DNA from: Spirosoma validum
GTDB taxonomy: Bacteria; Bacteroidota; Bacteroidia; Cytophagales; Spirosomataceae
NCBI RefSeq assembly: GCF_014699035.1
Contig: NZ_JACXAA010000005.1
Location: 248,001 to 312,000 of the forward strand
DNA length: 64,000 nucleotides
Reading direction: 5' to 3'
The position numbers and the translations under genes are program-made. The notes beneath the pieces were generated by a model that ran no database searches, had not been told where the DNA came from, and saw only the letters and a list, made by a program, of their open reading frames with translations. Positions 29,287 through 58,852 of this stretch are shown here, piece by piece; position 1 is the first letter of the stretch; every line of letters begins with the position of its first letter.

Positions 29287-29288
29287 CG

Positions 29289-34083: not shown

Positions 34084-34824
34084 TCAAGGCACAGAAAGTC
34101 GCTCATTAATTAATTGGGCTGCTGATCGTAATTCGAATTCAATTTCTTTTTGGCGACCCGTGCTGCAGCGAATCTCCGGTACGAATATACTTAAGCTGGC
34201 AATCACCAGATTTTGACGACGGATGGGTACAGCCAGCCCAATAATGTGCGTTTGAGAACGAGTCCTTGATAGCTCCTTTGTCCGAATTTCAGCTAACTCA
34301 GCGTCTAACCCCTGGGGTGAAGTAGCATCCGGCCAAATGTCTGAGCTAGGATATCCAATTGCGTTAATTAGACTTTCACGCTCTTTAGTGGACATGAAGG
34401 CCAGTAATAGTCGCCCTGATGCGGTTTCATAAATATTCCGTTCGGTGCGGCTTCGGGCCTGGAGGTCCTGATCACTATTGACTAAATGGACAATGAATCG
34501 TTTCTGATTCCGAATAATTCCCAGAATAGACGTTTCGTTGAGCCGATGGGTCAAGTCTTGCATAATATCTTTTGCCACCAGCACCAAATCCTGGCTGTAC
34601 GATAGATTGTTCGTCAGGTTGTAAGCCATCGGTCCCAATCGATACCCTTTCTTTCGGCCCAAATGTTCCAGGTAGTTTTTTTCAACTAGTGTTTTCAGAA
34701 TGTTAACGCAGGTTGCCTGGTTCATCTGCAGCGTTTCGGCAATCTCAGTGAGCGAATGTGCCCGGCTAGGATCCTGAGCAACAAGCTCCAGAATATCCAG
34801 TGCTTTAACAATAACTAATACCAT
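34084..34824 (-). CDS. IclR-family transcriptional regulator
   Basis: This 246-residue protein has the IclR winged-helix domain (about 1-65; IVKALDILELVAQDPSRAHSLTEIAETLQMNQATCVNILKTLVEKNYLE) and a GAF-like effector domain (about 80-240; YETASGRLLLAFMS, HIIGLAVPIRRQNLVIASLSIF). IclR proteins such as KdgR regulate uronate and pectin use. The gene stands at the head of the susC array, next to a KduD-like remnant and divergent from susC, so regulation of the locus in response to a uronate-type metabolite is a reasonable inference. Confidence 0.92.
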   Translation of the reverse strand: MVLVIVKALDILELVAQDPSRAHSLTEIAETLQMNQATCVNILKTLVEKNYLEHLGRKKGYRLGPMAYNLTNNLSYSQDLVLVAKDIMQDLTHRLNETSILGIIRNQKRFIVHLVNSDQDLQARSRTERNIYETASGRLLLAFMSTKERESLINAIGYPSSDIWPDATSPQGLDAELAEIRTKELSRTRSQTHIIGLAVPIRRQNLVIASLSIFVPEIRCSTGRQKEIEFELRSAAQLINERLSVP

Positions 34825-34908
34825 ATTGATGTGTAATTACCAATGAAGTATGATTTATGACGTAGGAAAGTATAGTATAATTCATATAGCCACTTGTTGT
34901 CGACCTAT

Positions 34909-35271
34909 TCATCTACCCACCCAGTTATTTGTTGCGATATAGCCTGGTGCAATGGCGTTTGCATTACTATTTTTTGACACCCATTCGTTGACGAAGGCTT
35001 TTACCAAACGGCCAACGACTTTTTTAGTAGCCGCGTAGCCCTGTACGGTAATACTGCCCAGAAATGCCAGCAGTGAAGCCGTGAAAATGATCTTGCCAGA
35101 ACCGCGCTCAACTATACCCCGACCAATTTCTCGAGTCAGAATAAAGGGGGCGCTTAGGTTGGTATTGGTTACGGTATTCCAATAGGCATCGAAGTGTTCG
35201 GCGGCTTGTCCAATTCCTCGTTTACAGCCTGTTGCTAATGTCGTCTTACCGGTTAAATCAAAAGCTTGCAA
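34909..35271 (-). pseudogene. Remnant of a KduD-like short-chain dehydrogenase
   Basis: The 120-residue frame begins like KduD (MQAFDLTGKTTLATGCKRGIGQ) and then jumps to DAYWNTVTNTNLSAPFILTRE, so about 70 residues holding the rest of the cofactor domain and the NNAG motif are missing. It continues through KIIFTASLLAFLGSITVQGYAATKKVV (Tyr-x-x-x-Lys kept) and stops after NAIAPGYIATNNWVGR, about 60 residues early. KduD reduces 5-keto-4-deoxyuronate-type intermediates (2-dehydro-3-deoxy-D-gluconate 5-dehydrogenase) in pectin breakdown. This copy is an internally deleted, truncated pseudogene. It shares its strand with the IclR gene. Confidence 0.8.
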
Positions 35272-35334
35272 AATGGCTATACTGTATCATTGTGATAGTA
35301 AATGCAAGTTTACATGATTAAAGTAGAATTACAA

Positions 35335-35351
35335 GGAATAGAACCTATTCC
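35335..35351. promoter_or_regulatory. Candidate operator in the regulator-susC gap
   Basis: GGAATAG (35335-35341) and CTATTCC (35345-35351) form a 7-bp inverted repeat with a 3-base spacer in the divergent region. A related half-site pair ATAG-TT-CTAT is at 35449-35458. IclR proteins bind such 15-17-base dyads. The regulator gene next door is a candidate binder. Confidence 0.4.
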
Positions 35352-35480
35352 ATAAAGCTTATTTTGTACTTTTCCAATTTGAATTTATTGCTGATCTCAG
35401 TGAAAACAGACAAGATTATAATTATTCGCTTAAATATAAAAATGAGAATAGTTCTATAAAAAAATTAATTAGTGAAAATA

Positions 35481-35512
35481 GTTGACAAATAGTGCTGTGG
35501 ATAATAGTATTG
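35481..35512 (+). promoter_or_regulatory. Candidate Bacteroidota-type promoter of susC
   Basis: GTTG at 35481 and TAGTATTG at 35505-35512 match the Bacteroidota -33 (TTTG) and -7 (TAnnTTTG) elements with one mismatch each and a 20-base gap. The start codon of susC is 48 bases downstream. The 288-bp region 35272-35559 is strongly AT-rich and contains no gene. Confidence 0.4.
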
Positions 35513-35559
35513 CATTGATAAATTCTAATTTATCAATGATAAATAATGACTAAACTCTC

Positions 35560-38500
35560 ATGAATAACCTTTCAATCTACCAAAGTCGAGCCTGGCTATT
35601 AGGATTGAGCTGGCTTCTGACAATAAGCCAATTACTAGGCCAATCCAATAACACGGTTACGGGGCGGATATCCGACGAATCGGGGCAACCCCTGCCGGGT
35701 GTCACTGTACTTGTCAAGAATACCGCATCGGCGGACCGTAATAACGGTACTACCACCGATGCCAAAGGTGACTATCGTCTGTCGGTACCGATTGGAAATA
35801 CAACGCTGGTTATTTCGTATGTTGGGTATGCGAGTCAGGAGGTTGCCATAGATAAGCGTTCGGTCATTAATGTTCAATTGGCGCTTGATAATAAAGCCCT
35901 GAACGAAGTAGTCGTGATCGGCTACGGTACGCAGCAGAAAAAAGACCTGACTGGGGCTGTGGCTTCGGTAACTGCGAAAGATATTCAGCGACTGCCTGTT
36001 TCAGGATTGGATCAGGCTTTGCAGGGTCAGGTACCTGGCTTACAGATTTCATCTACATCAGGTGCACCGGGCGGTAACACCAATATCTTGGTACGTGGTA
36101 TCGGTTCGGTGTCTGGTGGTAATGATCCTTTGTTTGTCGTCGATGGATTTCCAATCAACAATGCTGGCGTGGGTAATCCGCTGAATACCATCAATCCGGG
36201 TGATATTGAATCCATCGAAGTTCTGAAAGATGCATCAGCCACAGCTATTTATGGGTCACGGGGCTCTAACGGCGTCGTTATTGTGACGACTAAGCGTGGG
36301 AAATCAGGCAAGGCACAGATTACAGTGGATGCCTACGCAGGTGTTCAGGAGCCTGCCCGACTACTAAAGATGATGAACACCCGCCAATTCGCTGAATTCG
36401 TCATCGAAGGCCATAATAATGGTTGGCTCGACAACGGCGGTCCTAGTGCGAAAATCACCGATCCTAACAGCGTACGCTCCACCTCATACCGGATACCGGA
36501 AGAATGGCAGGATTTGAACAATCTCCCAAAAGTGGATACCGACTGGCAGAAGGTCATTTTTCGGACAGCCCCCATCCAGAATTATCAGATCAGCGCTGTG
36601 GGTGGTAATGACAAGTTGCGGTATGCCATGTCAGGGGGGTATTTCAATCAGAAAGGCATCCTTATCAGCTCGGGTTTTGAACGGTATTCAGCCCGGATCA
36701 ATCTTGACGGTCAGCTTAGTAGCCGATTAAAGGTCAGTATGAATTTAGCGCCTACCTATACCGCCACCGACAACGTACCATCGACGGGTCACTATAGCGA
36801 TTTTAATATTGTGGCTGAGGCCTTGTCTATGCCTCCGATGATTCCGGTTTACAATCCAGACGGTACATATGGCAATACCAATGCGCTAACAAATGTGGGA
36901 ATGGGGGCTATCCCGAATCCGGTTCAAACCGCCAACGAGTACAAAAGCTCCAACTCGCAATTCAGAATACTGGGTAATCTATTCGGGGAATACGAAATTA
37001 TCGATGGTCTGAAGTTCAGAGTGAGCGTTGGGACTGACTTTAACTACTTCACGACGAATATGTTCAAGCCGTCGACCTTATCAACGAGTGCTTCCGTATC
37101 GCCGGCCACTGCCAACATCGTCAATTCATCGGATGTAAACTGGCTGAATGAAAATACGCTCAATTATCGGCGGAACGTTGGCGCTCACTCCCTCGATGCA
37201 CTTGGTGGCTTCACCATTCAGAAATCAACCTCAACTGCAACGACTACGAATGCCACGAACTTCGCCGACGACCTCCTCGAAAACATTAACGGTGGACAGA
37301 TTACAGGTGGTGGATATAGTGTGGGGCAGTGGTCGCTGATGTCCTACCTCGGCCGGGTCAACTATGCCTATAATGACCGCTATCTGGTGACCGCGACCGT
37401 TCGATCGGACGGCTCATCTCGGTTCGGTTCGGCGAATCGCTGGGGAACATTCCCTTCGTTCTCCGTTGGCTGGCGCTTATCGGAAGAGCCTTTTTTGAAA
37501 AGTCTGAATCTATTCGACGATTTTAAAATTCGGGCCGGTTATGGGCTTTCCGGTAATAATTCCATTGGCAACTATCGCTACCTGGGCCTACTGTCGGCAA
37601 CTAATTATGTGCTGGGCAATACGCAGGTTCCGGGTCTAGCGCAAAGTAGTTTCACAAACAATAATCTGGGTTGGGAGACCAGCAAGCAGGTGGATATTGG
37701 TGTTGATCTGGCCTTTTTCAATAGTCGTCTGCAATTCACCGGCGATTACTACAACCGCCGTAACACGGATATGCTCCTCAATAAAGCCATTCCGTCTGCA
37801 ACGGGCTATACCTCTGCCTGGGTCAATATCGGCGAACTGGAAAATAAAGGCGTCGAGTTGGCGCTGTCGGGCAAACCGGTGGCTACGCGGGACTTCCAGT
37901 GGACCACTAGCTTCAACATCACCTTCAATCGTAATAAAGTCCTCCGACTCGGTACGGAAGGCGAACAACTCTTCTCCGACGGTGGCCGGGGCGATGTCAG
38001 CATCACGCAGGTAGGACAACCCATCGGCAGTTTCTACGGCCACCAGGTTGAAGGTATTTTCACTACGCAGGAACAGTTGGCTACTCATGCTAAACAAACG
38101 GGGGCTAAGCTCGGCGATTTTATGTATAAAGACATCGACGGGAACGGAGTAATCAGCGATGCCGACCGAACCATTCTGGGAAATCCACAGGCCAGAGCGT
38201 ATTACGGTTTCAACAATACGTTCACCTATAAAAACTGGTCGTTGAACATTCTGATGAATGGCGTCCAGGGGAAAGACGTATTCTGGGCCGGCGCTGTGTT
38301 TGTACGTGGGTATCATGGCGTACAGAACAATCTGGCCGAAGTCATCGAAAACTACTACAAATCGCCTTCGCAACCCGGCGATGGCAACTCTCCCCGAATT
38401 ATTCGGGGCGCCCTAAACAACAACCTGCGTTACAGCTCTTTTTTCAACTTCGACGGTTCATATCTGCGGATTCGGAACGTAACGCTGAATTACAATCTGC

Positions 38501-38700
38501 CGCAAAATCTGTCGAAACGGATTGGGATGCAGGGTGGACGGGTTTATTTGACCACTAACAACCTGTACACATTCACGAAATACCCTGGCTACGATCCCGA
38601 AATCAGTAACTCAGGTGATAATATGCTGGCGTCCGGTATTGATTACCTGGGCTATCCGCCAGCTCGTTCGTACACGCTTGGTTTAAGTCTAACCTTCTGA
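35560..38700 (+). CDS. susC: SusC/RagA-type TonB-dependent outer-membrane transporter
   Basis: The 1046-residue protein has a signal peptide (to about residue 27) and a carboxypeptidase-regulatory-like domain (about 30-105; VTGRISDESGQPLPGVTVLVKNT). A TonB-box-like stretch precedes a plug with the SusC signature (about 115-235; QQKKDLTGAVASVTAKD, GSVSGGNDPLFVVDGFP, SIEVLKDASATAIYGSRGSNGVVIVTTKRG), followed by a 22-strand barrel to the C-terminal LGLSLTF. It imports oligosaccharides across the outer membrane with the lipoprotein SusD encoded 14 bases downstream. There is no STN domain, so signalling through a FecR/sigma pair is not expected. Confidence 0.96.
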   Translation: MNNLSIYQSRAWLLGLSWLLTISQLLGQSNNTVTGRISDESGQPLPGVTVLVKNTASADRNNGTTTDAKGDYRLSVPIGNTTLVISYVGYASQEVAIDKRSVINVQLALDNKALNEVVVIGYGTQQKKDLTGAVASVTAKDIQRLPVSGLDQALQGQVPGLQISSTSGAPGGNTNILVRGIGSVSGGNDPLFVVDGFPINNAGVGNPLNTINPGDIESIEVLKDASATAIYGSRGSNGVVIVTTKRGKSGKAQITVDAYAGVQEPARLLKMMNTRQFAEFVIEGHNNGWLDNGGPSAKITDPNSVRSTSYRIPEEWQDLNNLPKVDTDWQKVIFRTAPIQNYQISAVGGNDKLRYAMSGGYFNQKGILISSGFERYSARINLDGQLSSRLKVSMNLAPTYTATDNVPSTGHYSDFNIVAEALSMPPMIPVYNPDGTYGNTNALTNVGMGAIPNPVQTANEYKSSNSQFRILGNLFGEYEIIDGLKFRVSVGTDFNYFTTNMFKPSTLSTSASVSPATANIVNSSDVNWLNENTLNYRRNVGAHSLDALGGFTIQKSTSTATTTNATNFADDLLENINGGQITGGGYSVGQWSLMSYLGRVNYAYNDRYLVTATVRSDGSSRFGSANRWGTFPSFSVGWRLSEEPFLKSLNLFDDFKIRAGYGLSGNNSIGNYRYLGLLSATNYVLGNTQVPGLAQSSFTNNNLGWETSKQVDIGVDLAFFNSRLQFTGDYYNRRNTDMLLNKAIPSATGYTSAWVNIGELENKGVELALSGKPVATRDFQWTTSFNITFNRNKVLRLGTEGEQLFSDGGRGDVSITQVGQPIGSFYGHQVEGIFTTQEQLATHAKQTGAKLGDFMYKDIDGNGVISDADRTILGNPQARAYYGFNNTFTYKNWSLNILMNGVQGKDVFWAGAVFVRGYHGVQNNLAEVIENYYKSPSQPGDGNSPRIIRGALNNNLRYSSFFNFDGSYLRIRNVTLNYNLPQNLSKRIGMQGGRVYLTTNNLYTFTKYPGYDPEISNSGDNMLASGIDYLGYPPARSYTLGLSLTF

Positions 38701-38714
38701 TCAGACTAGTTCTC

Positions 38715-40127
38715 ATGAAAGCCAAACACCTTTTTATTCCTCTATTCAGTCTGTTGTCGCTGGCCAGTTGTAACGACGATTTTCTAGCGCTTACGCCCGA
38801 AACGGACCGAAACACCACCAATTTTTATCAGACGGCCGCCGACTTTAACAATGCCGTTGTTGGCACTTATAATGCGCTCAAGCAGTCGGGCGTATACGGT
38901 ACATCGCTATACTGGATGGGCGAAGTTTCGACCGACAACACAGACTATGGCGTAACAACCCGGCAAGCTGTTAACGTCGACAATTTTCAGTTCGTCGATC
39001 ATACATACACCTCGCTGAATGACATTATCTTCGCGGCCTGGCGAGATCACTACAGAGCTATTAGTCGTGCCAATGCCATTTTGACTCGGATTGAGGGGGC
39101 CAGTATTGCTGATAATCTGAAGATGCAGTACAAAGGCGAAGCACAGTTCTTACGCGCTTTGTTCTATTTCGATCTGGTCCGCCTGTTTGGTGACGTTCCA
39201 CTGATCACAACCGAAATTACAACCCCGGATGGAGCCAGTAGTTTGAGCCGGACTCCAGCCGAGGATGTGTATAAGCTGATCATCAGCGATCTGCAAAGTG
39301 CGGAGCAAGCGCTACCCGTTTCGTATGGAACAGCGGATATCGGGCGCGTACCACAGGGAGCGGCTAAAGCCCTGTTAGGCAAGGTATATCTGACGCGCAA
39401 AGACTGGGCTACGGCGGCTGCGAAGTTAAAAGAGGTGATTACGTCCGCGAAGTACCAACTGTTGCCTAAATACGCTGATGTGTTCAGCTATGCAACGCCA
39501 ACGAACGCCGAAATTCTGTTCAACGTCCAATATAAATCGGGCAATACAGGTCAGGGGAGCGGTTTCGGACCTGTACAGGCTAGTGAAGGTGCCCGCATTA
39601 CTGGCGGTAGTATGCGTTACCCAACGGCGGATATGGAAACGGCTTACGAGGCTGGGGATCAGCGCAAAAGCTTCTCGATGAAATCGTCCTATATCGACGC
39701 CACCGGGCAATCGGTTAATCAGCGTTACGTCAGCAAGTACGTTCAATTCGGTGCATTAGCCAGCGATTCAGATATCGACTTCCCCGTGCTTCGGTACGCC
39801 GATGTACTGCTTATGTATGCGGAAGCGCTCAACGAAGTGGGCTTTAATCCGGAGGCCGTAACCTATTTGAATCAGGTGCGTAAACGGGCCGGGCTGGCAG
39901 ACACCAAAGCCACAAATCAGGCTAGTTTTCGACTATCTATTGAGCAGGAACGCCGGGTTGAGTTTGCCTTCGAGAATCAGCGCTGGTTCGATCTGATTCG
40001 GACGGGTCGGTACGTAACGGTTATGAACGCTAAAAGCCTTAAAGTTCAGGACTTTAATACGCTATATCTTATTCCTCAGCGCGAGATTGATTTAAATAAA
40101 AGCCTGAAGCAGAATCCAGGTTACTGA
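38715..40127 (+). CDS. susD: SusD/RagB-type glycan-binding lipoprotein
   Basis: This 470-residue protein has a lipoprotein signal (FSLLSLASC, Cys19), the SusD N-terminal region (TNFYQTAADFNNAVVGTYNAL) and TPR-like helices (KGEAQFLRALFYFDLVRLFGDVPLIT, PQGAAKALLGKVYLTRKDW). The C-terminal signature is LRYADVLLMYAEALNE...YLNQVRKRAGL and RRVEFAFENQRWFDLIRTGR. It forms the lid of the SusC barrel and captures oligosaccharides at the cell surface. It is one operon with susC. Sequence alone does not reveal the glycan. Confidence 0.96.
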   Translation: MKAKHLFIPLFSLLSLASCNDDFLALTPETDRNTTNFYQTAADFNNAVVGTYNALKQSGVYGTSLYWMGEVSTDNTDYGVTTRQAVNVDNFQFVDHTYTSLNDIIFAAWRDHYRAISRANAILTRIEGASIADNLKMQYKGEAQFLRALFYFDLVRLFGDVPLITTEITTPDGASSLSRTPAEDVYKLIISDLQSAEQALPVSYGTADIGRVPQGAAKALLGKVYLTRKDWATAAAKLKEVITSAKYQLLPKYADVFSYATPTNAEILFNVQYKSGNTGQGSGFGPVQASEGARITGGSMRYPTADMETAYEAGDQRKSFSMKSSYIDATGQSVNQRYVSKYVQFGALASDSDIDFPVLRYADVLLMYAEALNEVGFNPEAVTYLNQVRKRAGLADTKATNQASFRLSIEQERRVEFAFENQRWFDLIRTGRYVTVMNAKSLKVQDFNTLYLIPQREIDLNKSLKQNPGY

Positions 40128-40178
40128 GTTCATGCTCAATCAGGCCGCAGTCGACTACAATTTTAACGCTTTTGGTCC

Positions 40179-40877
40179 ATGAAACTTTCCCAAACCTTAC
40201 CCATTGTCCTGCTTGCTTATTTACTCTTGGGTACCGCTCCGTCGTTGCCGAAGTTGTACGTCATTGGCGACAGTATTTCGATGCGGTACGGGCCGTTTCT
40301 GGAAAAGTATGTACAAGGCGTTTGGCAGTACGACCGAAAAAGTGATGATGGACAGGCTGCCAAAAATCTGGACGTACCGGTCGGAGCCAATGGAGGGGAT
40401 TCCCGTATGGTACTGGAATATTTGAAATTGAAAGCACCCGACAAAACGTTTCAACCGGATGTATTGCTCCTGAATTGCGGCCTGCACGACATTAAACGAA
40501 ACCCAGAAACCAATGCGATTCAGGTAGATTCAGCCAGTTATCGCAAAAATCTGGAAGCCATTTACCAACTGCTTCATAAGCGGAATATCCGGCTGGTCTG
40601 GATGCGCACAACATCCGTAGAGGACGAACGGCACAACACCCGCTCGAAAGCCTTTAAGCGGTATGCCCGTGACCTGGATGCGTACAATGCTATTGCTGAC
40701 GAGGTGATGCACAAACATGGGGTTTCCATCGTCGATTTGTACACCTTCACCCGGAGTCTGGGTAGCGAGCATTTTGTCGATCACGTACACTACGACGATG
40801 CTGCAATGCAACTACAGGCAGGCTACATCGCTGGTTTTTTACAAGGTCTGCTTCCCTTAACTCAAAAACGAAAATGA
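40179..40877 (+). CDS. Exported SGNH/GDSL esterase
   Basis: The 232-residue protein has a signal peptide (to about residue 20) and the SGNH blocks: Gly30-Asp31-Ser32 (nucleophile), the Gly of NGGDS (about 72-75), CGLHD (about 100-104, where His replaces the usual Asn of block III) and Asp201-x-x-His204. Enzymes of this kind often remove acetyl groups from plant polysaccharides such as rhamnogalacturonan. It follows susD by 51 bases and its stop overlaps the next start in ATGA, so it is translationally coupled to the GH39-like gene. Confidence 0.85.
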   Translation: MKLSQTLPIVLLAYLLLGTAPSLPKLYVIGDSISMRYGPFLEKYVQGVWQYDRKSDDGQAAKNLDVPVGANGGDSRMVLEYLKLKAPDKTFQPDVLLLNCGLHDIKRNPETNAIQVDSASYRKNLEAIYQLLHKRNIRLVWMRTTSVEDERHNTRSKAFKRYARDLDAYNAIADEVMHKHGVSIVDLYTFTRSLGSEHFVDHVHYDDAAMQLQAGYIAGFLQGLLPLTQKRK

Positions 40878-43669: not shown

Positions 43670-43714
43670 CAATTGACGCAATCCTCATTACGTAACAATA
43701 AAACAAGTAGCAGA

Positions 43715-45849: not shown

Positions 45850-45884
45850 GTAGCCGTTGTCGGATGACAAAAGAAAAACAACGT

Positions 45885-48957: not shown

Positions 48958-48988
48958 TTATTTAAGCCCTAAAATTAGCAAACCCATC

Positions 48989-50620
48989 ATGTCACACGTA
49001 AAGCACTTCCTGTTCTGCTTGCTTCTTGCAACCAGCGTCTTCGCTCAGCAACCGTCTGGCGTGTGGGATGTGCTGGCGTATGGGGCCAAAGGGGATGGCA
49101 AAACAATGGATACCAAGGCCATTCAGACGGCTATCGACCAATGCCATGCAGCCGGGGGCGGTCGGGTGTATTTGCACAACGGGACGTTTCTGTCGGGGAC
49201 AATCTACCTGAAAAGCAACGTAACGCTTTCCGTTGAAGCGGGCGCGACATTATTGGGTAGCCCGAAAGCAGCTGACTATCCCGACCAAACGTCGGAGTAT
49301 CCAACGTACGATGAACATCCACTGACCAGCAAAGCCTTAGTCTACGCGGAAAACTGTCGGAACATCAGTATCGAAGGGCGGGGGACGATTGATGGACGCG
49401 GGGATATGCTAGACAATCGTGGTCCCAAGGATCCGTACATGCGGCCTTCTTTCAAATATCGCCCGCGCATCCTTCATATACGAGGCTGTGAGAATGTCCT
49501 GATCAAAGGCGTGACACTACAGAATTCGGCGTCCTGGGTGCAAACGTATCAGGGTTGTAAAAACATGGTTATTGACGGTATTACAGTCGACAGCCGCGAG
49601 AACAAAGATGTCGAGAATCCGAATCGCGAACACGCCGTTAAGCATCGCAATACGGACGGTATGGATTTAGTCGATTGCGAGGTCGTCCGCGTGAGCAACT
49701 GCTTCATTACGAGTGGCGACGACGGCATCTGTATCAAAAGTTTCTCGCCCGATAAAGTATGCCGGAATATTAACATCACCAATTGTCATGTCAGTTCCGG
49801 GGCTAGTGGTATCAAAATAGGTACTGAAACCGCTGGCCGATTCGAAGATATTGTAATTCAAAATTGCACCGTATTCGATACCTGGGGCGATGGGCTGGCG
49901 ATTATGACTGTGGATGGCGCTCGAATAAAGCGGGTCACGATTTCAGACATTAGCCTGCGAAACATCAAACGCGCCGGGATTTTCGTCCGACTGAATACCC
50001 GAAACAAGAAGTATGGTACGAACACAACTACCAATAAACCGGCTTTACTGGATATACTTATTGCCAATCTTCAGGGGAGCCGACTGGCCGCTCTGGGCTG
50101 TTCGATAACGGGCCTAACTGACTATCCGGTCGAGAATGTGATCCTACGTAACCTAAACTTCGAGTTCGAAGGCGGCATCACCGATGTCAAACCCACTTCG
50201 GTACCCGAAAAAGCGGATGTCTACCCGGTCGGAACGATGTTCGGTGCTACGTTACCCGCGTATGGTTTTTATGTTCGGCACGTCCGAAACATCACCTTCG
50301 ACCAGGTACAGTTGCGCTTCGTGAAAGAAGATCAACGTCCGGCGATGGTGTTTGACGATACCGAAGATTTGGAAATTCGGGGCTTTAAAGCGCAAAGTGT
50401 AGTACAAACTCCGGAACTGATCCGGCTGATAAACACCCGTAAAACCATTATTGCCGATTCACGGCCAACGGCGACTGTTGCCGCATTCCTGTCGGTTTAC
50501 GGCGACAAATCATCGGCCATCACCTTAATCAATAACCAGTTGGGACAGTCCAAACAAACTTATTTTTTTGAAACGCCATCCCTAAAAGCATCCGTCAAAG
50601 AATCTGGAACGATCCAGTAA
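48989..50620 (+). CDS. GH28-family polygalacturonase-like enzyme, copy 1
   Basis: The 543-residue protein has a signal peptide (to about residue 20), the pectate-lyase-superfamily start (VLAYGAKGDGKTMDTKAIQTAI) and a right-handed beta-helix. GH28 catalytic acids are at Asn221-Thr-Asp223 (NTDGMD) and Asp244-Asp245 (SGDDG). The usual GHG histidine motif is replaced by SSGASGIKIGTE. GH28 enzymes hydrolyse alpha-1,4-galacturonides of homogalacturonan, xylogalacturonan or rhamnogalacturonan; the exact linkage cannot be read. A C-terminal tail from about 430 is a helix of short repeats. It is a paralogue of the next gene. Confidence 0.87.
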   Translation: MSHVKHFLFCLLLATSVFAQQPSGVWDVLAYGAKGDGKTMDTKAIQTAIDQCHAAGGGRVYLHNGTFLSGTIYLKSNVTLSVEAGATLLGSPKAADYPDQTSEYPTYDEHPLTSKALVYAENCRNISIEGRGTIDGRGDMLDNRGPKDPYMRPSFKYRPRILHIRGCENVLIKGVTLQNSASWVQTYQGCKNMVIDGITVDSRENKDVENPNREHAVKHRNTDGMDLVDCEVVRVSNCFITSGDDGICIKSFSPDKVCRNINITNCHVSSGASGIKIGTETAGRFEDIVIQNCTVFDTWGDGLAIMTVDGARIKRVTISDISLRNIKRAGIFVRLNTRNKKYGTNTTTNKPALLDILIANLQGSRLAALGCSITGLTDYPVENVILRNLNFEFEGGITDVKPTSVPEKADVYPVGTMFGATLPAYGFYVRHVRNITFDQVQLRFVKEDQRPAMVFDDTEDLEIRGFKAQSVVQTPELIRLINTRKTIIADSRPTATVAAFLSVYGDKSSAITLINNQLGQSKQTYFFETPSLKASVKESGTIQ

Positions 50621-50637
50621 TTGGTCAAATTATTACC

Positions 50638-52149
50638 ATGAATAAGCTAGCCACCATTCTTTTTCTCTGCCTGGCGCTCACTACGGCCGGTTTTTGCCAT
50701 AAACCCACCGGTGTATGGGATGCGTTTGCGTATGGGGCCAAAGGGGATGGCAAAACGATGGATACCCAGGCCATTCAGACGGCCATTGACCAATGCCATG
50801 CATCCGGGGGCGGTCGGGTGTATTTGCACAACGGGACGTTTCTATCGCGAACAATCTACCTAAAAAGCAACGTAACGCTCTTTGTCGAAGCAGGCACTAC
50901 GCTGTTGGGGAGTGCCAACGTGAATGATTACCCAAGTACGGCCTCAAAATACCCGGCTTACGGAGGTGAATTGGTGACGGAGAAAATGTTCATCTACGCC
51001 GAAGACGCTCGCAACATTTCCATTGCCGGACGCGGAACGATCGACGGTCGGGGAGATGATTTCAACGGCCCTTATCTGTCCCCCTCGTTCAGTGGCCGCC
51101 CCCGAATTCTCCATTTTCGAAACTGCGAGAACGTGCAGGTTCGGGATATTACGTTACGTAACTCGGGATCGTGGGTGCAGTTTTACCAGTCGTGCCGGAA
51201 CATGGTCATTGACGGAATTACAGTCGATAGCCGGGAAAATAAAGACATCGAGAAGTCCCGTCATGCTGATGCCAAAGGGCGCAACACCGATGGCATGGAT
51301 CTGGTCGATTGTCAGATTGTTCGTGTGTCTAACTGCTTCATTAATAGTGGTGACGACGCCATTTGCCTGAAAAGTTTATCGCCTGGCGAAAGCTGCCGGG
51401 ACATTACCATCACCAATTGCATCGTCAGTTCCAATGCGTCGGGTATCAAGATCGGTACCGAAACGAGTGGAGCGGTTGAAGACATTACCGTTCAAAATTG
51501 CACCGTATTTGATACGCGCGTCGATGCGATCAGTGTAATGACCGTGGACGGTGCCCGCATTGAACGGATCAACATCTCGAACATATCGGTTCGCAACGTG
51601 AAAGGCACCGCCATTTTCGTCCGGTTGGGTGCCCGAAACCGGACGTACCGAAAAAATACCAAAGCCAATACGGGCTTTTTAAAAGATGTTTTGATCGAGA
51701 ATGTGCAGGGGACCCGGATTGGTGGCTATGGTTGTTCCATCACTGGAATTCCGGGCTTCCCCGTCGAAAATATAACCCTGAAGCAAATCCGACTCCGGTT
51801 TGATGGGAGTAACAAACCCTTGCTGAGCGACGACGATACCCGAAAACCCGTACCAATCGCTCCACCGCCTGCCAATCCGCTAGTTCCTGAAAAAATCGAC
51901 GCTTATCCGCGTGGTGAAATGTTCGGTCGATTACCGGCTTATGGGTTTTACATCCGGCACGGCAAGAACATAGTGCTGGACAATCTGTCCCTCGATTATG
52001 CGGACGAAGAAAACCGTCCGGCCATTGTTGCAGATGATGTCGATGCCTTAGAAATCAATCAGTTAAAAGCGAAGCCCAGTCCGAATGTCCCGGCATTAGT
52101 GCAGCTTAAAAACGTTCGAAATTCACCTAACATGCCTAAATCAAACTAA
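50638..52149 (+). CDS. GH28-family polygalacturonase-like enzyme, copy 2
   Basis: The 503-residue protein repeats the architecture of the preceding gene: signal peptide (to about residue 20), AFAYGAKGDGKTMDTQAIQTAI start, NTDGMD (Asn216, Asp218), SGDDA (Asp239-Asp240) and SSNASGIKIGTE in place of GHG. A Pro-rich insert (PVPIAPPPANPLVPEK) near residue 400 distinguishes it. The first 150 bases of the mature region are almost identical at DNA level to copy 1, more than the rest. The symporter gene begins 1 base after its stop with GTG. Confidence 0.87.
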   Translation: MNKLATILFLCLALTTAGFCHKPTGVWDAFAYGAKGDGKTMDTQAIQTAIDQCHASGGGRVYLHNGTFLSRTIYLKSNVTLFVEAGTTLLGSANVNDYPSTASKYPAYGGELVTEKMFIYAEDARNISIAGRGTIDGRGDDFNGPYLSPSFSGRPRILHFRNCENVQVRDITLRNSGSWVQFYQSCRNMVIDGITVDSRENKDIEKSRHADAKGRNTDGMDLVDCQIVRVSNCFINSGDDAICLKSLSPGESCRDITITNCIVSSNASGIKIGTETSGAVEDITVQNCTVFDTRVDAISVMTVDGARIERINISNISVRNVKGTAIFVRLGARNRTYRKNTKANTGFLKDVLIENVQGTRIGGYGCSITGIPGFPVENITLKQIRLRFDGSNKPLLSDDDTRKPVPIAPPPANPLVPEKIDAYPRGEMFGRLPAYGFYIRHGKNIVLDNLSLDYADEENRPAIVADDVDALEINQLKAKPSPNVPALVQLKNVRNSPNMPKSN

Positions 52150-52150
52150 C

Positions 52151-53854
52151 GTGCAAACCCTACAACAACTAGACTACTGGGCCATTGCCATTTACATGCT
52201 CCTGATGGCGGGCATCGGGCTGTTCCTGGGCAAATTCGTCAAGAATATCGGCGATTATTTCAAAGGGGGGAACGCCATTCCGTGGGTGTCGGGAGCCATC
52301 AGCAACTTCATGACGAAGTTCAGTACGTTTATCTTCGTAGCCTACGCGGGGATTGCTTACCAGCATGGATTCGTGGCCCTGACGCTGATCTGGAGTACCG
52401 TTTTACCCGCCTTGCTGGGCGTGGCCATCTTTGCCAAACGCTGGCGCCGGGCGGGGATTATGACCCCCATGGAGTTTCTGGAGACCCGGTTCAATTCATC
52501 CGTTCGTCAGACGTTTTCCTGGATGGGCGTCCTCTTCAAAATTCTGGACAACATGGTTCGGTTGTACGCGCTGGGGCTGTTTGTGAAAGCCGCCACGGGC
52601 CTATCGCTGGAAAGCTCCATTCTGGCTTGCGGAATCATCGTTGCGTTGTACACCGTAGTCGGTGGATTGTGGGCGGTGGTCGTGACGGACGTAGTGCAGT
52701 TCATTATCCTCATCGTGGCCACGTTGATTCTGGTACCGCTAACGATTCAGGCGGCTGGTGGCTTACCCAGCATGATGGCCGCTATTCCCGATCATTTCAC
52801 CTGGTTCAACGGGCCAAAAGGAATGCCGCTGTATCTGATGGTCTATTACCTGATGATTCTGGTCAAATACAGCGGCAATTGGACGTTTATTCAGCGGTTT
52901 TACAGCGTTCGCGATGAGCGTGCCAGTCAGAAACAAGGCTTATTGACGGCCGTCTTTTTCTTTCTGTTTCCCATTATTTTTCTGTTCCCATCCATTGCCG
53001 CAAAAGCCCTGATACCGAATCTCGAAAACCCGGAAATGGCCTATGTCAGTGTCTGCCTGAAACTGTTGCCCGAAGGGATTATGGGCCTGATGGTAGCCGC
53101 CATGTTTGCCGCTACCATGTCGGTGTTGAGTGGCGAATACAACGTAACGGCGGGCGTTCTGACGCGTGATATTTATCAGCGACTATTTAACCCCAAAGCG
53201 GCTGATAAAGAAATGCTTTGGGTGGGCCGGTTCATGACACTGGTGCTGGGGGCACTGGTCACGATAGGGGCGTTGTATGTAGGCGGCTTTGGTGGTGCCT
53301 TTGAAGCCAACAAATTGTTTACCGGGTTATTTGCCATTCCAATGACGTTGCCGCTGGTGCTGGGCATTGTCTTGAAACGACCGCAGCCCTGGGGCGCGTT
53401 TGCTACGTTGGTCGTCGGAATGGGACTTGGCCTGATTCTGAATACCATGCCTCAGGTATCCTGGGAGTGGGCAACCCTCATCGAAATCGTTTCCTGCGTG
53501 TTGGTGTTCCTGCTTTCGGGCGCGCTTTTATCCCCATCAGCGCTGTATCAGCAACGTGTCGAAGCCTTCTTTCGGCGCTTGCGCACGCCATTGACCGAAG
53601 CTGAGAAACCCGCCGAAAATCCGGTATTCATGCAGATTATGAATCGGTTATATGCCGTCGCGCTGGTTGTGACGGGGGCTTTATTCATTGTCATGAGCTT
53701 GCCGTCAATCGAAGAAACCAGCGGTCGGGTAGCACTAGGTGCCGGTTGTCTCTGTCTGGTGCTTTCTGCGTTGATGTGGTACCGCACCCGAAAAACGATC
53801 CTTGTTTCTGAACCCGTAGAACACCATAAAACGCAGCAAACCATAGAAAACTAA
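52151..53854 (+). CDS. Sodium:solute symporter (SSS family)
   Basis: The 567-residue membrane protein starts with GTG at 52151 and has about 14 TM helices. Family hallmarks are NIGDYFKGGNAIPWVSGAISNFMTKFSTF (TM1-2 region), VGGLWAVVVTDVVQFIIL and AAMFAATMSVLSGEYNVTAGVLTRDIYQRLFNPKA. It couples sodium entry to uptake of a sugar, uronate or similar solute. Its place between secreted GH28 enzymes and cytoplasmic genes suggests that it takes up the mono- or oligosaccharides released in the periplasm. SSS members are common in galacturonate and rhamnose loci. Confidence 0.93.
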   Translation: MQTLQQLDYWAIAIYMLLMAGIGLFLGKFVKNIGDYFKGGNAIPWVSGAISNFMTKFSTFIFVAYAGIAYQHGFVALTLIWSTVLPALLGVAIFAKRWRRAGIMTPMEFLETRFNSSVRQTFSWMGVLFKILDNMVRLYALGLFVKAATGLSLESSILACGIIVALYTVVGGLWAVVVTDVVQFIILIVATLILVPLTIQAAGGLPSMMAAIPDHFTWFNGPKGMPLYLMVYYLMILVKYSGNWTFIQRFYSVRDERASQKQGLLTAVFFFLFPIIFLFPSIAAKALIPNLENPEMAYVSVCLKLLPEGIMGLMVAAMFAATMSVLSGEYNVTAGVLTRDIYQRLFNPKAADKEMLWVGRFMTLVLGALVTIGALYVGGFGGAFEANKLFTGLFAIPMTLPLVLGIVLKRPQPWGAFATLVVGMGLGLILNTMPQVSWEWATLIEIVSCVLVFLLSGALLSPSALYQQRVEAFFRRLRTPLTEAEKPAENPVFMQIMNRLYAVALVVTGALFIVMSLPSIEETSGRVALGAGCLCLVLSALMWYRTRKTILVSEPVEHHKTQQTIEN

Positions 53855-53863
53855 AATCACGCT

Positions 53864-54562
53864 ATGAACAACCTTCAGGATAAAATTATTTTCGTAACCG
53901 GCGCGTCCAGTGGGATTGGTAAAGCTACTGCTCTGGCACTGCTCGAAGAGGGCGCTAACGTATTCGACTTCAGCCGAACCCATCAACTAACCGATGAAGT
54001 CAGCCACGAAAACCTGCGCTCGTTTCGGGGCGACGTTAGCCAGGAAGCCGATGTGCAGGCCGGATTTGCCGCTTGCGTAGCGGCCTTCGGAACGGTAGAT
54101 GTACTGATCAACAACGCGGGTATTGGCCTGATAACACCGGACCTCTCGGTGGCGGAGCTGGATACGTTCGAGCAAATGATGAGCATCAATGTGCGGGGCG
54201 TTTTTCTGTGCAACCGGGAAGCGCTTAAGCTCATGAAACCCCGACAAACGGGTCATATCGTGACGGTTATCTCCATGGGTGGCCAACGCACAAACCCAAC
54301 AGCGCCTGTTTACTGTGCCTCCAAATTTGGCGCACGTGGACTCAGCAGTGGTTTAGCCGATCAGGTTTTGAAAGAAGGCATCCGGGTGACGGATGTGAAC
54401 CCAGGTCCAACCGATAGCAACTATTGGGGCGACCGAAAAGTGGCCCGTGAGAAGTTTCTGAAGGTTGAGGACGTAGCACGCGTCATTGTATTTGTACTCA
54501 ACCAACCGGAATACATCATCATTCGGGAAATCAATTTTGACAACATGAAATTTCTGGCATAA
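53864..54562 (+). CDS. Short-chain dehydrogenase/reductase
   Basis: The 232-residue classical SDR has the cofactor motif TGASSGIGKATAL (about 11-23), NNAGIG (about 83-88), the catalytic Ser in ISMGG and Tyr-x-x-x-Lys in YCASK (about 147-151), and NPGP afterwards. It is cytoplasmic. In the array it precedes the RraA-like gene by 2 bases, so the two are probably in one pathway that oxidises or reduces a sugar acid. It is complete, unlike the KduD-like remnant at 34909, and might have taken over its role. Confidence 0.9.
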   Translation: MNNLQDKIIFVTGASSGIGKATALALLEEGANVFDFSRTHQLTDEVSHENLRSFRGDVSQEADVQAGFAACVAAFGTVDVLINNAGIGLITPDLSVAELDTFEQMMSINVRGVFLCNREALKLMKPRQTGHIVTVISMGGQRTNPTAPVYCASKFGARGLSSGLADQVLKEGIRVTDVNPGPTDSNYWGDRKVAREKFLKVEDVARVIVFVLNQPEYIIIREINFDNMKFLA

Positions 54563-54564
54563 TA

Positions 54565-55272
54565 ATGAAATCCAACGGAAAACACCATCCTGACGGCAAA
54601 CAGCCTGTCCCTCCCTTCCCGATTCCGGTGTCGGAAATGCGGATGCGATACCTGCAACTTTTTACCGGAGCCATTAATGATGTACTTCGGTTTAACTACA
54701 ATATGCATGCGTCCAGCCTGCCAGCTGCGTTTGCGCCACTCCGGGAGGAAATGAAAATGGCGGGCATGGCCTTCACGGTGAAAGGTGGCCCCGACATTAC
54801 AACCGATGGCGAGTTTGAAATGCGGGCACAAATGCTGGAAGATCTGCACCAGGATTCGGTCGTTATCTGGGATTGTACGGGCGATACGGTTACCTCACAA
54901 TGGGGCGAGGTGATGACGATGGCAGCACTCAAAGCGGGTTGTCGGGGAGCTCTTATTAACGGCATTCGGGATACGAAAGCTATTCTGACGCTGGATTTTC
55001 CGGTTTTCCATAAGTACAAAACCAGCACCGGAATGCTCGGCCGATTCCGTATGTATTATTACCAGAAACCCATCCAGATTGGTGAAGTGATTATACATCC
55101 CGGCGACTGGATTTTTGGAGACATTGACGGAGCCATTGCTATCCCGCAGGCCATCGCGTATGATGTATTGGTAGCTGCCGAAAAGATCGTGCACAAAGAA
55201 GAAGGCATCAAGGAAATGGTCGAAAGCGGGATGACGCCTACGGAGGTGGTCAAAAACGGCGGCTATTTCTGA
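54565..55272 (+). CDS. RraA-like aldolase/decarboxylase family protein
   Basis: The 235-residue protein has the RraA/HMG-aldolase fold: GMAFTVKGGPDI, WGEVMTMAALKAGCRGALINGIRD with Arg135-Asp136, and VHPGDWIFGDIDGAIAIPQ. The Gly-x-x-x-Arg-Asp region with a metal-binding Asp fits class II aldolases such as HMG/CHA aldolase rather than the RNase E inhibitor. Homologues occur in sugar-acid catabolic clusters, where they cleave or decarboxylate 2-keto acids. Its stop overlaps the next start by one base (TGATG). Confidence 0.85.
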   Translation: MKSNGKHHPDGKQPVPPFPIPVSEMRMRYLQLFTGAINDVLRFNYNMHASSLPAAFAPLREEMKMAGMAFTVKGGPDITTDGEFEMRAQMLEDLHQDSVVIWDCTGDTVTSQWGEVMTMAALKAGCRGALINGIRDTKAILTLDFPVFHKYKTSTGMLGRFRMYYYQKPIQIGEVIIHPGDWIFGDIDGAIAIPQAIAYDVLVAAEKIVHKEEGIKEMVESGMTPTEVVKNGGYF

Positions 55273-57338
55273 TGGAAGCCATTGCCACATCAAATCTATT
55301 TCTGACGGTTGCCGAAAAGAAAGCCATCCTATCGAGCCACGACCCAGTGATGATGAAATTCCGTCAGGCACTGCGGGCGCGGGTCATCGAGCGGCTATCG
55401 ACACTGGGTGTACAGGTAGAAAACCCTGCTTTAGGGTGGTGGTATCCGTGTGCAGAACACTTGGCTGATGCTGCTATGCAGTACGCCCTCGAACCAACCG
55501 ATGCACTGGCAACCTGGCTGCGGAATACAACGCTGGATATCGTCCGTTTACCAACCTCCGATTGGGTCGGACCGTGGTTTCGGGATCATGCTGAACCGTT
55601 CACTGGCCATCTGGAAACGGCCCATGTGTGCTGGGGTATTTCCGCCGTGTTGAGCCTGGCGGGTGATGTGTTTACCGACGAGGAAGGTGTGGAGGTACGA
55701 GAGTATCTGTACAAAAAAGGTGTGGTCTTATGTCGCCGTTGGCTGCTGAAAAATAGTCATTTGGGTAACTGGCGGGGCATTATGGCATCGGGAGCTGTTG
55801 TTGCATCGGCGGCTTTGGGCGACGAAGCACTAGTCGCTGAGTTTACGCCCGAAGTTGCTCGAATGGCTCAGGCTTTTCAGCCGGATGGTTCGTATGGTGA
55901 GTCGCTCCAGTATGGAAATTACCTGGCCAATGCCCTGATGCTGGCGTATGAATCGCTGATTCGGCAATACCCTGATCAGGCTCGGCAACTGGATATTAGT
56001 GCGTATGGGCGGGGTATGGCTTGGATGGCACAAAGTATGTTGTACCGTAAACCAATGGGCAATTCATGGGGCCAGGAACCACGAGCCAGAGCAGTCAACT
56101 TCAATGATTCGGCGGCTCTGTTCCGGCCTTCGGGTGATTTACTGCTTCATGTTGCGGCTCGGTATGACGATTCCATACAAGCCGGACTTGCCCGCTGGTT
56201 ATTTCAGGAATACTACGAACCTGTGCCAACGCAGGGCCCACATGATCTGGCTACGTTTGGCATGCTGAATGACTGGGGGTTTCTGACGTTGCCGTTACTG
56301 ACAAGGGCCTGTAAACCCATTTCGCCAGAAGCCGCTACGTTGCCCTTGACAGTTGCGTTTTCGAATGGAAATACGTTCGTGCGTGACGGTTGGGATGGAA
56401 AATCAATACTGGCCATTCAGGGTGGCAATAACGATGGTGTATATGCGCCTGGCCACTTACAGGGCGATTTAAACAGCTTTATGCTGGCCTACAATCAGGA
56501 GCGATTGCTGGTAGATCCTGGCCATAGTTGCTACCGAAACCTGATTCACGGATTGGAAAGCGCCACCCAGACGCATAACACCTGCACATTTCTGATAGAG
56601 CAGGATATGCTGGGTTTACAGGAAGACCTGGCAAAAATCAAACTGCTGGAGCAGAAAAACGTACTATCCCGACGACTTATTCACGCCGATGGAACCATGG
56701 GCTCACCCGTTGAGCGGGGAGGGCGATTGGAAGCTGTTCAGCGGGTGGATGAAATCTCGCTGGTTGTTTCGGAAGTGGGCCATTCCTATGGCTATCCCAT
56801 TCAGGAATTTGCCCGGTGCTGGATTCATATTGGGGCGCACGTCACACTGGTGATCGATCGGATTCAGGCCAGCGAGCCCGTGCGGACAGTCTGGAACTGG
56901 CTGATTAACAACCGGGATGGTAAATCAATCAGTCAAATTCAGGGCAATACGCTCACGATACGTCGCCATCAGGCCGGATTAAAACTATGGCATTTCGGAG
57001 AAGCAGCCTTGGCTGGACCCGTGTACGCGTATCTGCACGATGCCTATCATCCCGAACCCGATCAGCCAGGGGAGGGTAGACCCGGCAGTGGATTACTGTT
57101 TCGCCATACAGATGCTAAAAATTCGATGACTATCAGTCGTTTACATTTGATCGTGGCGGATGATGTAGTGCATATTGATGACTGGAAGGCCACACACAAA
57201 GAGCAGGCATTGGCAATCAGCAAGCCGGGTATCAACATTCAACTAACGGGTACTTACGATGACAAGCTATCGATCAAGCTGGAAACTGGTGGAATAACCT
57301 ACCTAATCACGGATTGCAATCTAACAACCAAATCATGA
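55272..57338 (+). CDS. Heparinase II/III-like protein without signal peptide
   Basis: This 688-residue protein has an N-terminal (alpha/alpha) toroid (about 20-370; WRGIMASGAVVASAALGD, FQPDGSYGESLQYGNYLANALM) and a C-terminal beta-sandwich with the heparinase II/III motifs GHLQGDLNSF (His395, Asp399), VDPGHSCYR and THNTCTF (His435). Family members are polysaccharide lyases on uronate-containing glycans. I see no signal peptide, so it should act in the cytoplasm on imported oligosaccharide, or it may be non-lyase. It is coupled to RraA upstream and to the VOC gene by an ATGA overlap. Confidence 0.8.
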   Translation: MEAIATSNLFLTVAEKKAILSSHDPVMMKFRQALRARVIERLSTLGVQVENPALGWWYPCAEHLADAAMQYALEPTDALATWLRNTTLDIVRLPTSDWVGPWFRDHAEPFTGHLETAHVCWGISAVLSLAGDVFTDEEGVEVREYLYKKGVVLCRRWLLKNSHLGNWRGIMASGAVVASAALGDEALVAEFTPEVARMAQAFQPDGSYGESLQYGNYLANALMLAYESLIRQYPDQARQLDISAYGRGMAWMAQSMLYRKPMGNSWGQEPRARAVNFNDSAALFRPSGDLLLHVAARYDDSIQAGLARWLFQEYYEPVPTQGPHDLATFGMLNDWGFLTLPLLTRACKPISPEAATLPLTVAFSNGNTFVRDGWDGKSILAIQGGNNDGVYAPGHLQGDLNSFMLAYNQERLLVDPGHSCYRNLIHGLESATQTHNTCTFLIEQDMLGLQEDLAKIKLLEQKNVLSRRLIHADGTMGSPVERGGRLEAVQRVDEISLVVSEVGHSYGYPIQEFARCWIHIGAHVTLVIDRIQASEPVRTVWNWLINNRDGKSISQIQGNTLTIRRHQAGLKLWHFGEAALAGPVYAYLHDAYHPEPDQPGEGRPGSGLLFRHTDAKNSMTISRLHLIVADDVVHIDDWKATHKEQALAISKPGINIQLTGTYDDKLSIKLETGGITYLITDCNLTTKS

Positions 57339-57730
57339 CCGACTCTTTGTTTCTGGGCGTAGATCACCCTGCCGTAGCTGCCGACGATGTGGAAACATTG
57401 GCTGATTGGTATTGCCGCGTGCTGGGGTATCAACGATGGTTTCGCCATGAAAAACCCGTCTGGATGTTACGGGCACCCGATCAAACTCTGTTAGAAATCA
57501 TGCCTAGAGACCAAACCGCTCGTCCTGAGCGTACAACCTGGACACCCGGCTGGTCGCATGTGGCGTTACGGGTAGCTGACATTGAGAAAGCCATTGCTCA
57601 TTTAGATGAGCAATGCATTGTCTGGGGTGGCGAGTTGACCAATGCCATTGGCGGAGGTCGCGTCCGGAACTTCTTCGATCCTGAAGGCAACATGCTTCAG
57701 ATTCTCGAACGAGGTTCGCTAACCCATTAA
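57335..57730 (+). CDS. VOC/glyoxalase-fold protein
   Basis: I choose the ATG at 57335, which overlaps the previous stop as ATGA, giving 131 residues. The two beta-alpha-beta-beta-beta repeats are visible: FLGVDHPAVAADDVETLADWYCRVLGY and WSHVALRVADIEKAIAHL...VRNFFDPEGNMLQILER. Metal-binding candidates are His in VDHPAV, Glu in LLEIMP, His in WSHVAL and Glu in LQILE. VOC enzymes are epimerases, dioxygenases or glyoxalases. Here it is probably an epimerase or lyase on a sugar acid or keto acid, but this is a guess from position. Confidence 0.8.
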   Translation: MTDSLFLGVDHPAVAADDVETLADWYCRVLGYQRWFRHEKPVWMLRAPDQTLLEIMPRDQTARPERTTWTPGWSHVALRVADIEKAIAHLDEQCIVWGGELTNAIGGGRVRNFFDPEGNMLQILERGSLTH

Positions 57731-57791
57731 ATCGCCCGGTTCGCATTGCCTCAAATTGGCAACCCACTGCCCTTTTACTATTCACTAATTC

Positions 57792-57811
57792 ATCGCACCG
57801 GCGACCCGGTC
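57792..57811. repeat. Intergenic repeat copy B (ACCGGCGACCCGGT core)
   Basis: This is the second copy of the 20-base element at 26347-26366, here 24 bases before the ATG at 57836 and again just downstream of TTCACTAAT. The preceding 50 bases are not otherwise similar. Confidence 0.7.
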
Positions 57812-57835
57812 AATCGTTCATTCGCTCTTTAAACT

Positions 57836-58852
57836 ATGAAAGCAGCCTATTATACCGGAAATCAGCAATTTGAATTAAAGGAAGCTACCCCAGAAACACT
57901 CCATCCGGGTATGGTCCGGTTGAAAGTTGCGTACTGTGGCGTCTGTGGAACCGACGTACATATTTATCACGGCAAAATGGATCAGCGAGTGCGTATGCCG
58001 CAGGTGATTGGCCATGAGGTTTCGGGGGAAATTGCCGAAATCGGAGAGGGTGTCACGGGCTGGAAAGTTGGTGATCGGGTGGCGGTTCGGCCGTTGCAGC
58101 CGGGTGCCGAAGACCCATCCGATAATGGCCAGCAGCATATTGGCAAAAATCTAAAATTTATTGGTATCGATACCTCAGGTGGCATGCAAACCTACTGGAA
58201 CGTACCTGCGTATACACTTCATCGTTTACCGGAAAATATGCCGCTGGAGCTAGGCGCGTTGACCGAACCACTGGCCGTAGCCTGTCATGATGTTCGGTTA
58301 AGTCGCTTGCAACCCGGCGAACATGCGGTTGTGATTGGTGGAGGACCCATTGGGGTATTGATTGCGCTCGTTGCCCGACACAAAGGTGCCAGTGTGCTGA
58401 TCTCTGAGCCGAATCAAACTCGGCTGGCGCTGTGTCAAACACTAGATCTGCCAGCCGTAAATCCAATGGCGACCGATTTGGTAAACGAGGTAGAAGCTTT
58501 TACCAATGGGGCTATGGCCGATGTGGTTTTCGAAGTATCCGGTGTAGCTGCGGGCGTTCAGGCGATGACGCAGTTGGCGAGGGCACGGGGTCGAATTGTT
58601 ATGGTTGCCATTCACAGTGAGCCTAAACCGGTCGATTTATTCCGCTTTTTCTGGCGGGAACTGCAACTCATTGGTACGCGTGTGTACGAACCAGAAGATT
58701 TCGACGAAGCTATCAGACTGGCAGCTTCCGGTAAACTTCCGCTCGATCAGCTTATCACACAAATTTCTCCCCTGGAAGATATTCAAGCAGTTTTTGAGAC
58801 CATCGACAATAACCCGGCGGGTATGAAATATTTGCTTCAATGCACTACCTAG
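57836..58852 (+). CDS. Zinc-type alcohol dehydrogenase (MDR family)
   Basis: The 338-residue protein is a medium-chain dehydrogenase. Catalytic-zinc ligands Cys37 (YCGVCGTDVHIYHG) and His60-Glu61 (VIGHEVSG) are present and a GGGPIGVLIA Rossmann motif is at about 166. The four-cysteine structural-zinc loop is absent; the region reads RPLQPGAEDPSDNGQQHIGKNLKF. The pattern PENMPLELGALTEPLAVACHDVR fits the threonine/sorbitol-type polyol dehydrogenases. It probably oxidises a sugar alcohol or sugar acid. It is the last gene of the array. Confidence 0.9.
   Translation: MKAAYYTGNQQFELKEATPETLHPGMVRLKVAYCGVCGTDVHIYHGKMDQRVRMPQVIGHEVSGEIAEIGEGVTGWKVGDRVAVRPLQPGAEDPSDNGQQHIGKNLKFIGIDTSGGMQTYWNVPAYTLHRLPENMPLELGALTEPLAVACHDVRLSRLQPGEHAVVIGGGPIGVLIALVARHKGASVLISEPNQTRLALCQTLDLPAVNPMATDLVNEVEAFTNGAMADVVFEVSGVAAGVQAMTQLARARGRIVMVAIHSEPKPVDLFRFFWRELQLIGTRVYEPEDFDEAIRLAASGKLPLDQLITQISPLEDIQAVFETIDNNPAGMKYLLQCTT

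Follow-up and report, generated by a model that had tools for sequence, protein, structure and literature searches.

Which acidic glycan is served by a polysaccharide utilization locus that combines four GH39-like domains, two GH28 proteins and a set of cytoplasmic genes, and which of its parts are fixed? The question is raised by positions 34084..58852 of a 64,000-nt stretch of Spirosoma validum DNA, hereafter the window (assembly GCF_014699035.1, contig NZ_JACXAA010000005.1, positions 248,001-312,000, forward strand; host genome of 8.2 Mb in 39 contigs). On balance, we favor reading it as a SusCD locus for an acetylated, uronate-containing glycan, the core of which would be a cytoplasmic cassette for uronate cleavage; within this family, that cassette is coupled with a distinct subfamily of GH39-like enzymes. 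The locus is an ordinary-looking polysaccharide utilization locus on its outside, with an unusual and tightly linked core of GH39-like genes and a heparinase-fold candidate lyase.

The layout is of the SusCD type, with adjacent susC and susD genes (14 bases apart) and co-directional carbohydrate-active enzyme genes. Its 16 same-strand genes run from susC, starting at 35560, to a zinc dehydrogenase (ADH) gene ending at 58852, 14 of them behind the susC–susD pair, with intergenic gaps of -25 to 105 bases. The open reading frames lie where a first-pass annotation of this DNA had placed them, and Pfam and NCBIfam models support its SusC, SusD, two esterases (GDSL and PaeX-like), two GH28 proteins and cytoplasmic set, namely a sodium:solute symporter (SSS), a short-chain dehydrogenase (SDR), an RraA-like protein, the heparinase-like protein and ADH. 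Its gene list missed a VOC-family gene, which overlaps the 3' end of the lyase gene.

We compared the locus with 27 related stretches from genomes of the family and with 47 named loci, the latter with flanks of at most 10 kb; flank cuts and short contigs lower the gene counts of the named loci, and their SDR label includes KduD. Across both sets, the SSS, SDR, RraA, lyase, VOC and ADH genes stay together and the outer enzymes vary: one branch has GH28, PaeX, GDSL and a conserved 385-aa protein (o385), and other branches have GH88, GH115, GH26, a GH38-type protein (matched in its C-terminal domain only) or a second Hepar_II_III protein. The order SSS-SDR-RraA-lyase is found in 24/24 family loci (window included) and in 33 of the 34 named loci having all four genes, and gene calls over the 47 named loci amount to 46 for the lyase, 43 for SDR, 39 each for RraA and SSS, 36 for ADH and 32 for VOC. 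The cytoplasmic cassette SSS-SDR-RraA-lyase-VOC-ADH is therefore the fixed part of the locus and no accessory.

The GH39-like genes go with this cassette in the family genomes. The GH39-like query and the lyase profile each match 28 of 150 family genomes, the two lists are identical, and neither matches in the other 122 (Fisher p = 5e-31, uncorrected for kinship and for transfer as a unit). Of the 68 GH39-like places, 63 are no more than 25 kb from the lyase and 2 share its contig at a greater distance; the remaining 3 belong to two fragmented assemblies, in which they are on different contigs from the lyase. Among the named loci, a GH39-like protein is present in 33/37 from Bacteroidota, 3/7 from Planctomycetes and 0/3 from Verrucomicrobia/Kiritimatiellota. 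GH39-like and lyase genes travel together, which is a statement on their distribution and not on their function. Since they are always found together in the 150 family genomes, assays of either partner should give a lead on what the other acts on, and a loose list of carbohydrate-active enzymes becomes a testable unit.

The lyase has the Pfam C-terminal domain and, by prediction, the toroid plus beta-sandwich fold of heparinase II/III-type proteins. It looks like a family without described function and probably acts in the cytoplasm on uronic-acid sugars. Its fold is shared with the oligoalginate lyases PL15/PL17 of alginate systems (3a0o, 7bjt, 4nei), but structural alignments give only 11-13% identity to them, and 13-14% to GAGase II/VII and PL35 chondroitinase (8khv, 8khw, 9o3q). 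Alginate systems have in common with the locus an SDR and downstream steps of the 2-keto-3-deoxygluconate type; to our knowledge, GH39, GH28, esterases and an RraA-like aldolase are not part of them.

The first description is right in that this is a polysaccharide locus in which GH39-like enzymes stand out, and in that four such domains with intact catalytic Glu pairs are spread over three genes. PF01229 exceeds its cut-off (26 bits) in three locus proteins, and a profile scan of the genome yields four separate matches at the locus (37.1-43.3 bits), along with one further, stronger GH39 elsewhere (195 bits). All four domains are related in BLASTP among themselves (highest pairwise E 1.5e-53). 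The acid/base and nucleophile Glu residues are kept in the four domains and in 66/66 related domains, and align with those of PslG, given as Glu165/Glu276 in PMC11912335. The closest solved structure to enzyme b is PslG (E 8.5e-21), and the closest to the fused protein is the uncharacterised 5jvk, followed by PslG. In terms of known systems, the locus domains share PF01229 matches above cut-off with PslG and GH39 beta-xylosidases, but the match of their clade profile to PslG, its top structure, spans only 301/499 profile positions (E 1.2e-19).

The idea of a recent four-copy expansion did not survive. Identity is 40% between the two halves of the fused protein, 31-34% between the fused protein and enzymes b or c, and 75% between b and c. 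We built a tree of 66 domains from 60 proteins, taken from the window and from 27 stretches fetched in 26 genomes; it leaves out at least two GH39-like places, in G033 and in G044 (at 804144), and resolves five clades: A with 24 rows, B with 12, C with 6, D with 9 and E with 15. Joins between clades are unsure, as long branches meet there according to a warning of the tree tool. The window contributes to A and C through the N and C halves of the fused protein, and twice to B through b and c. Because b clusters with three Larkinella rows (support 99/96) and c with another Larkinella row (100/99), the pair b/c seems to have arisen by duplication before the split from Larkinella; the A–C fusion is also found in five relatives. 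Judging from this tree, "four-copy expansion" is a misleading term for what appear to be three old clades plus one old duplication. We know of no tested member in the five clades. As a side observation, a 1116-aa planctomycete protein (L112:16849-20199) matches both GH115 (36%) and the GH39-like profile (505 bits), and is probably a fusion.

With regard to the backbone, both GH28 proteins match PF00295 above its cut-off and keep the NTD and GDD motifs, and both lack the polygalacturonase-type His of GHG and Arg/Lys of R-x-K. These residues, which have a role in galacturonate binding, are present in the solved structures 3jur and 7b8b and in 5/28 aligned GH28 rows (two L115 rows repeat two of G059). 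The top NCBIfam model of both proteins is the BT4146 rhamnogalacturonidase (NF049898), at 274.4 and 275.8 bits, that is, about 55% of the cut-off of 500; a BT4146-like function is possible all the same. Per locus, GH28 and o385 occur both in 11 cases, GH28 alone in 0, o385 alone in 1 and neither in 16 (uncorrected for kinship). On the basis of the motif losses, the top model and this pairing, our best guess ranks a substrate like rhamnogalacturonan I (RG-I) first for the GH28 branch, for which the pectic substrate proposed at the outset is plausible, and other uronate glycans second.

The protein o385 looks like a family without described function. Mean column identity is 83% over 12 members, with 77-89% identity in 11 relatives, and a profile scan finds it in 12/150 family genomes, all among the 28 with the lyase and the GH39-like subfamily. 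The window member has no Pfam match; weak Prenyltrans (prenyltransferase-toroid) matches occur in 5/15 homologues, and o385 is possibly an alpha/alpha toroid, its predicted structure being too poor for a fold claim (confidence score, pLDDT, of 64). Five Planctomycetes sequences have 65-67% identity to it, and o385 stands directly behind the lyase in 5/7 Planctomycetes loci, a reach which suggests that a lyase–o385 unit may have been transferred. Another protein without a Pfam match, of 440 aa and beta-propeller-like by eye (L060:3356-4678), has related proteins close to the cassette in six of the named loci (L086, L087, L089, L118, L119, L122).

For a step downstream of the lyase, the locus has only a trace of a gene that many related loci possess. 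The gap between the IclR-family gene and susC holds a kduD remnant, absent from the first-pass annotation, which covers residues 1-26 and 105-198 of the 256-aa KduD, the remainder being missing; it is all that the locus has of the KduD defined by TIGR01832 (cut-off 338.85). Several relatives have a full KduD at this very place; in relatives the 256-aa SDR stands beside IclR or behind ADH, and the L114 copy passes the KduD cut-off. Full KduD is found in 9/27 family stretches and 17/47 named loci (some genomes are in both sets); it is cut by the stretch end in G124, may be broken in G146 (stretches L065-L066), where the matches split across two frames, and is absent from the stretches of the closest relatives G082, G091, G100 and G116. 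Elsewhere, the S. validum genome has two KduD-like genes (316 bits, below the cut-off), one KduI-family gene and two KDPG-aldolase-family genes, by which it may still run the 2-keto-3-deoxygluconate route. For the aldolase step, the RraA-like protein may be a second candidate; an RD dipeptide, which is catalytic in this fold, lies within residues 126-150 in 23/25 of its homologues. Among the Verrucomicrobia/Kiritimatiellota loci, L118, L119 and L123 combine RraA-SDR-lyase-ADH with KduD and a GH88-family gene, L118 also with LarA-type racemase and 2-hydroxyacid dehydrogenase genes.

From these gene contents we infer a substrate, a transported product, an order of reactions and a set of activities as follows. 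Oligosaccharides would cross the outer membrane via SusCD and be deacetylated by the two esterases. The secreted GH28s, without polygalacturonase signatures, would cleave an alpha-linked backbone of the uronate/rhamnose type. Enzymes of the GH39-like clades A, B and C would use a retaining double-Glu mechanism, each clade taking off a different branch or linkage. The SSS symporter would import a short product containing uronate, which would be a rhamnose/galacturonate disaccharide if the chain is RG-I-like; the cytoplasmic lyase would then beta-eliminate this product, releasing a 4-deoxy-5-keto uronate. Finally, the KduD step, the SDR, the RraA-like aldolase and the zinc dehydrogenase would lead to pyruvate and a three-carbon unit via 2-keto-3-deoxygluconate; because the local kduD is a remnant, the KduD step would perhaps be ensured here by the KduD-like genes elsewhere in the genome. 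The RG-I system of Bacteroides thetaiotaomicron (PMC8002723) is similar in its SusCD uptake, GH28 rhamnogalacturonidases and uronate-eliminating chemistry. However, its lyases are active at the outer membrane as well as in the periplasm, and monosaccharides are what is imported, whereas the only lyase-like protein of our locus seems cytoplasmic, GH39-like enzymes dominate and GH106 is not matched.

A broader proposal, which we make tentatively, is that of an undescribed uronate-glycan unit formed by a new five-clade GH39-like subfamily, an uncharacterised cytoplasmic lyase family and the Pfam-less o385, in which Spirosoma relatives would swap outer enzymes for different acidic glycans and consume the products via KduD and a non-phosphorylating RraA-type aldolase. 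The swaps of GH28, GH88, GH115, GH26 and GH38-type enzymes round a fixed cytoplasmic core suggest how these bacteria may shift between acidic glycans. The presence of GH39-like enzymes next to an uncharacterised, probably uronate-cleaving cytoplasmic enzyme points to a little-known breakdown of pectin-like or other acidic sugar chains.

Several observations weigh against a uronate-cleaving core tied to the GH39-like subfamily. No GH39-like gene was found near the lyase in 4/7 Planctomycetes and 3/3 Verrucomicrobia/Kiritimatiellota loci (in the fetched stretches with flanks of at most 10 kb, the rest of these genomes not being searched), and, in another family, one genome with a distant GH39 match (32%) lacks the lyase. 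The cassette occurs without GH28 in 17/28 loci, so that it does not by itself indicate pectin. Pfam scans matched neither GH106 nor GH88/GH105 among the locus genes, and, except for the broad SSS model, function-naming NCBIfam models stay under their cut-offs for the window proteins: the PaeX-like esterase does not reach the 550 bits of pectin acetylesterase PaeX (NF041902), the zinc dehydrogenase scores 191.6 against 458 for its top model, tdh, and the top models of the IclR-family protein, BhcR (80 bits) and KdgR (78 bits), are each under cut-off. The KDPG-type aldolase homologues of the genome make the RraA step only one option. Moreover, the lyase fold is also that of a dermatan-sulfate epimerase (6hzn; 588 residues aligned, 3.3 A), so that lyase rather than epimerase chemistry is presumed.

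Among other explanations, the strongest, although unlikely, is a glucuronate-containing glycan rather than pectin (plant gum, arabinogalactan side chain, or algal or microbial exopolysaccharide), with the GH28s acting on another alpha-uronide or rhamnoside: the combination of GH28 with a PaeX-like esterase is more usual for pectin, and the GH115 and GH88 genes are not in this locus. In its favor, sister loci with the same cassette do have GH115, GH88, GH26 or a GH38-type protein, and PslG, the closest GH39 structure to enzyme b, acts on the exopolysaccharide Psl (PMC11912335). The first-pass proposal of xylogalacturonan, or a similar branched homogalacturonan, in which GH28 would cut galacturonan and GH39-like enzymes would remove xylose or arabinopyranose, could call on the GH28 and PaeX-like esterase genes and on the GHG and R-F-K motifs of GH28s in 5 relatives. 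It has nonetheless become improbable, for both window GH28s lack these residues and have the BT4146 model on top (below cut-off), PslG outranks xylosidases for enzyme b and the clade profile, as 5jvk and PslG do for the fused protein, and the xylogalacturonan hydrolase 4c2l matches GH28 b weakly (E 1e-6). Lastly, a role of the heparinase-fold protein as a uronate C5-epimerase that supplies an iduronidase-like GH39 step is, despite the shared fold, very improbable, as this protein looks cytoplasmic and the GH39-like enzymes look exported (N-termini by eye), KduD partners suit a lyase product, and several bacterial lyases give a higher Z.

Features of the locus under the uronate-glycan reading (window positions; functions are predicted)
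Feature	Position	Strand	Evidence
IclR-family regulator, divergent from operon	34084..34824	-	Pfam IclR_C 59.7 bits, HTH_IclR
kduD remnant	34924..35280	-	TIGR01832 match E 1.4e-24; blastx 71% over 94 residues to KduD of G080 and G126
SusC-like TonB-dependent receptor	35560..38700	+	Pfam Plug, CarbopepD_reg_2, TonB barrel
SusD-like surface glycan-binding lipoprotein	38715..40127	+	Pfam SusD_RagB, SusD-like_3; lipobox-like N-terminus (by eye)
GDSL/SGNH esterase, probably secreted	40179..40877	+	Pfam Lipase_GDSL_2 48.9 bits; N-terminus
Fused tandem GH39-like protein (N, clade A domain; C, clade C domain)	40874..43669	+	PF01229 in two stretches; two genome matches; tree; Glu pairs
Alpha/beta-hydrolase esterase, PaeX-like, probably secreted	43673..44647	+	Pfam BD-FAE 71.4 bits; PaeX 227.8 bits
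o385, conserved, without Pfam family, no signal peptide seen	44692..45849	+	385 aa
GH39-like enzyme b, clade B, twin-arginine (Tat)-like signal	45864..47405	+	PF01229 42.4 bits
GH39-like enzyme c, clade B, Tat-like signal	47434..48957	+	PF01229 41.5 bits
GH28 protein a	48989..50620	+	PF00295 123.8 bits; motifs
GH28 protein b, same type as a	50638..52149	+	PF00295 110.6 bits; alignments to solved GH28; motifs
SSS-family sodium:solute symporter	52151..53854	+	PF00474 182 bits; TIGR00813 204.4 vs cut-off 184
SDR, no signal peptide seen	53864..54562	+	PF00106 167 bits
RraA-like aldolase, no signal peptide seen	54565..55272	+	PF03737 90.8 bits
Heparinase II/III-like lyase (Hepar_II_III), no signal peptide seen	55272..57338	+	
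VOC-family small protein	57314..57730	+	PF00903 52 bits
Zinc-dependent medium-chain dehydrogenase (ADH)	57836..58852	+	PF08240 + PF00107

Around the locus, the window also encodes, upstream, a GH88-family gene (24032-25141, +) and a GH43 gene adjoining a BNR-repeat gene (28249-29936, +), and, immediately outside the locus, a class A beta-lactamase-family (Beta-lactamase2) gene (33156-34073, +). At 60909-62687 (-), a single protein combines glucose/sorbosone dehydrogenase and cytochrome c domains.

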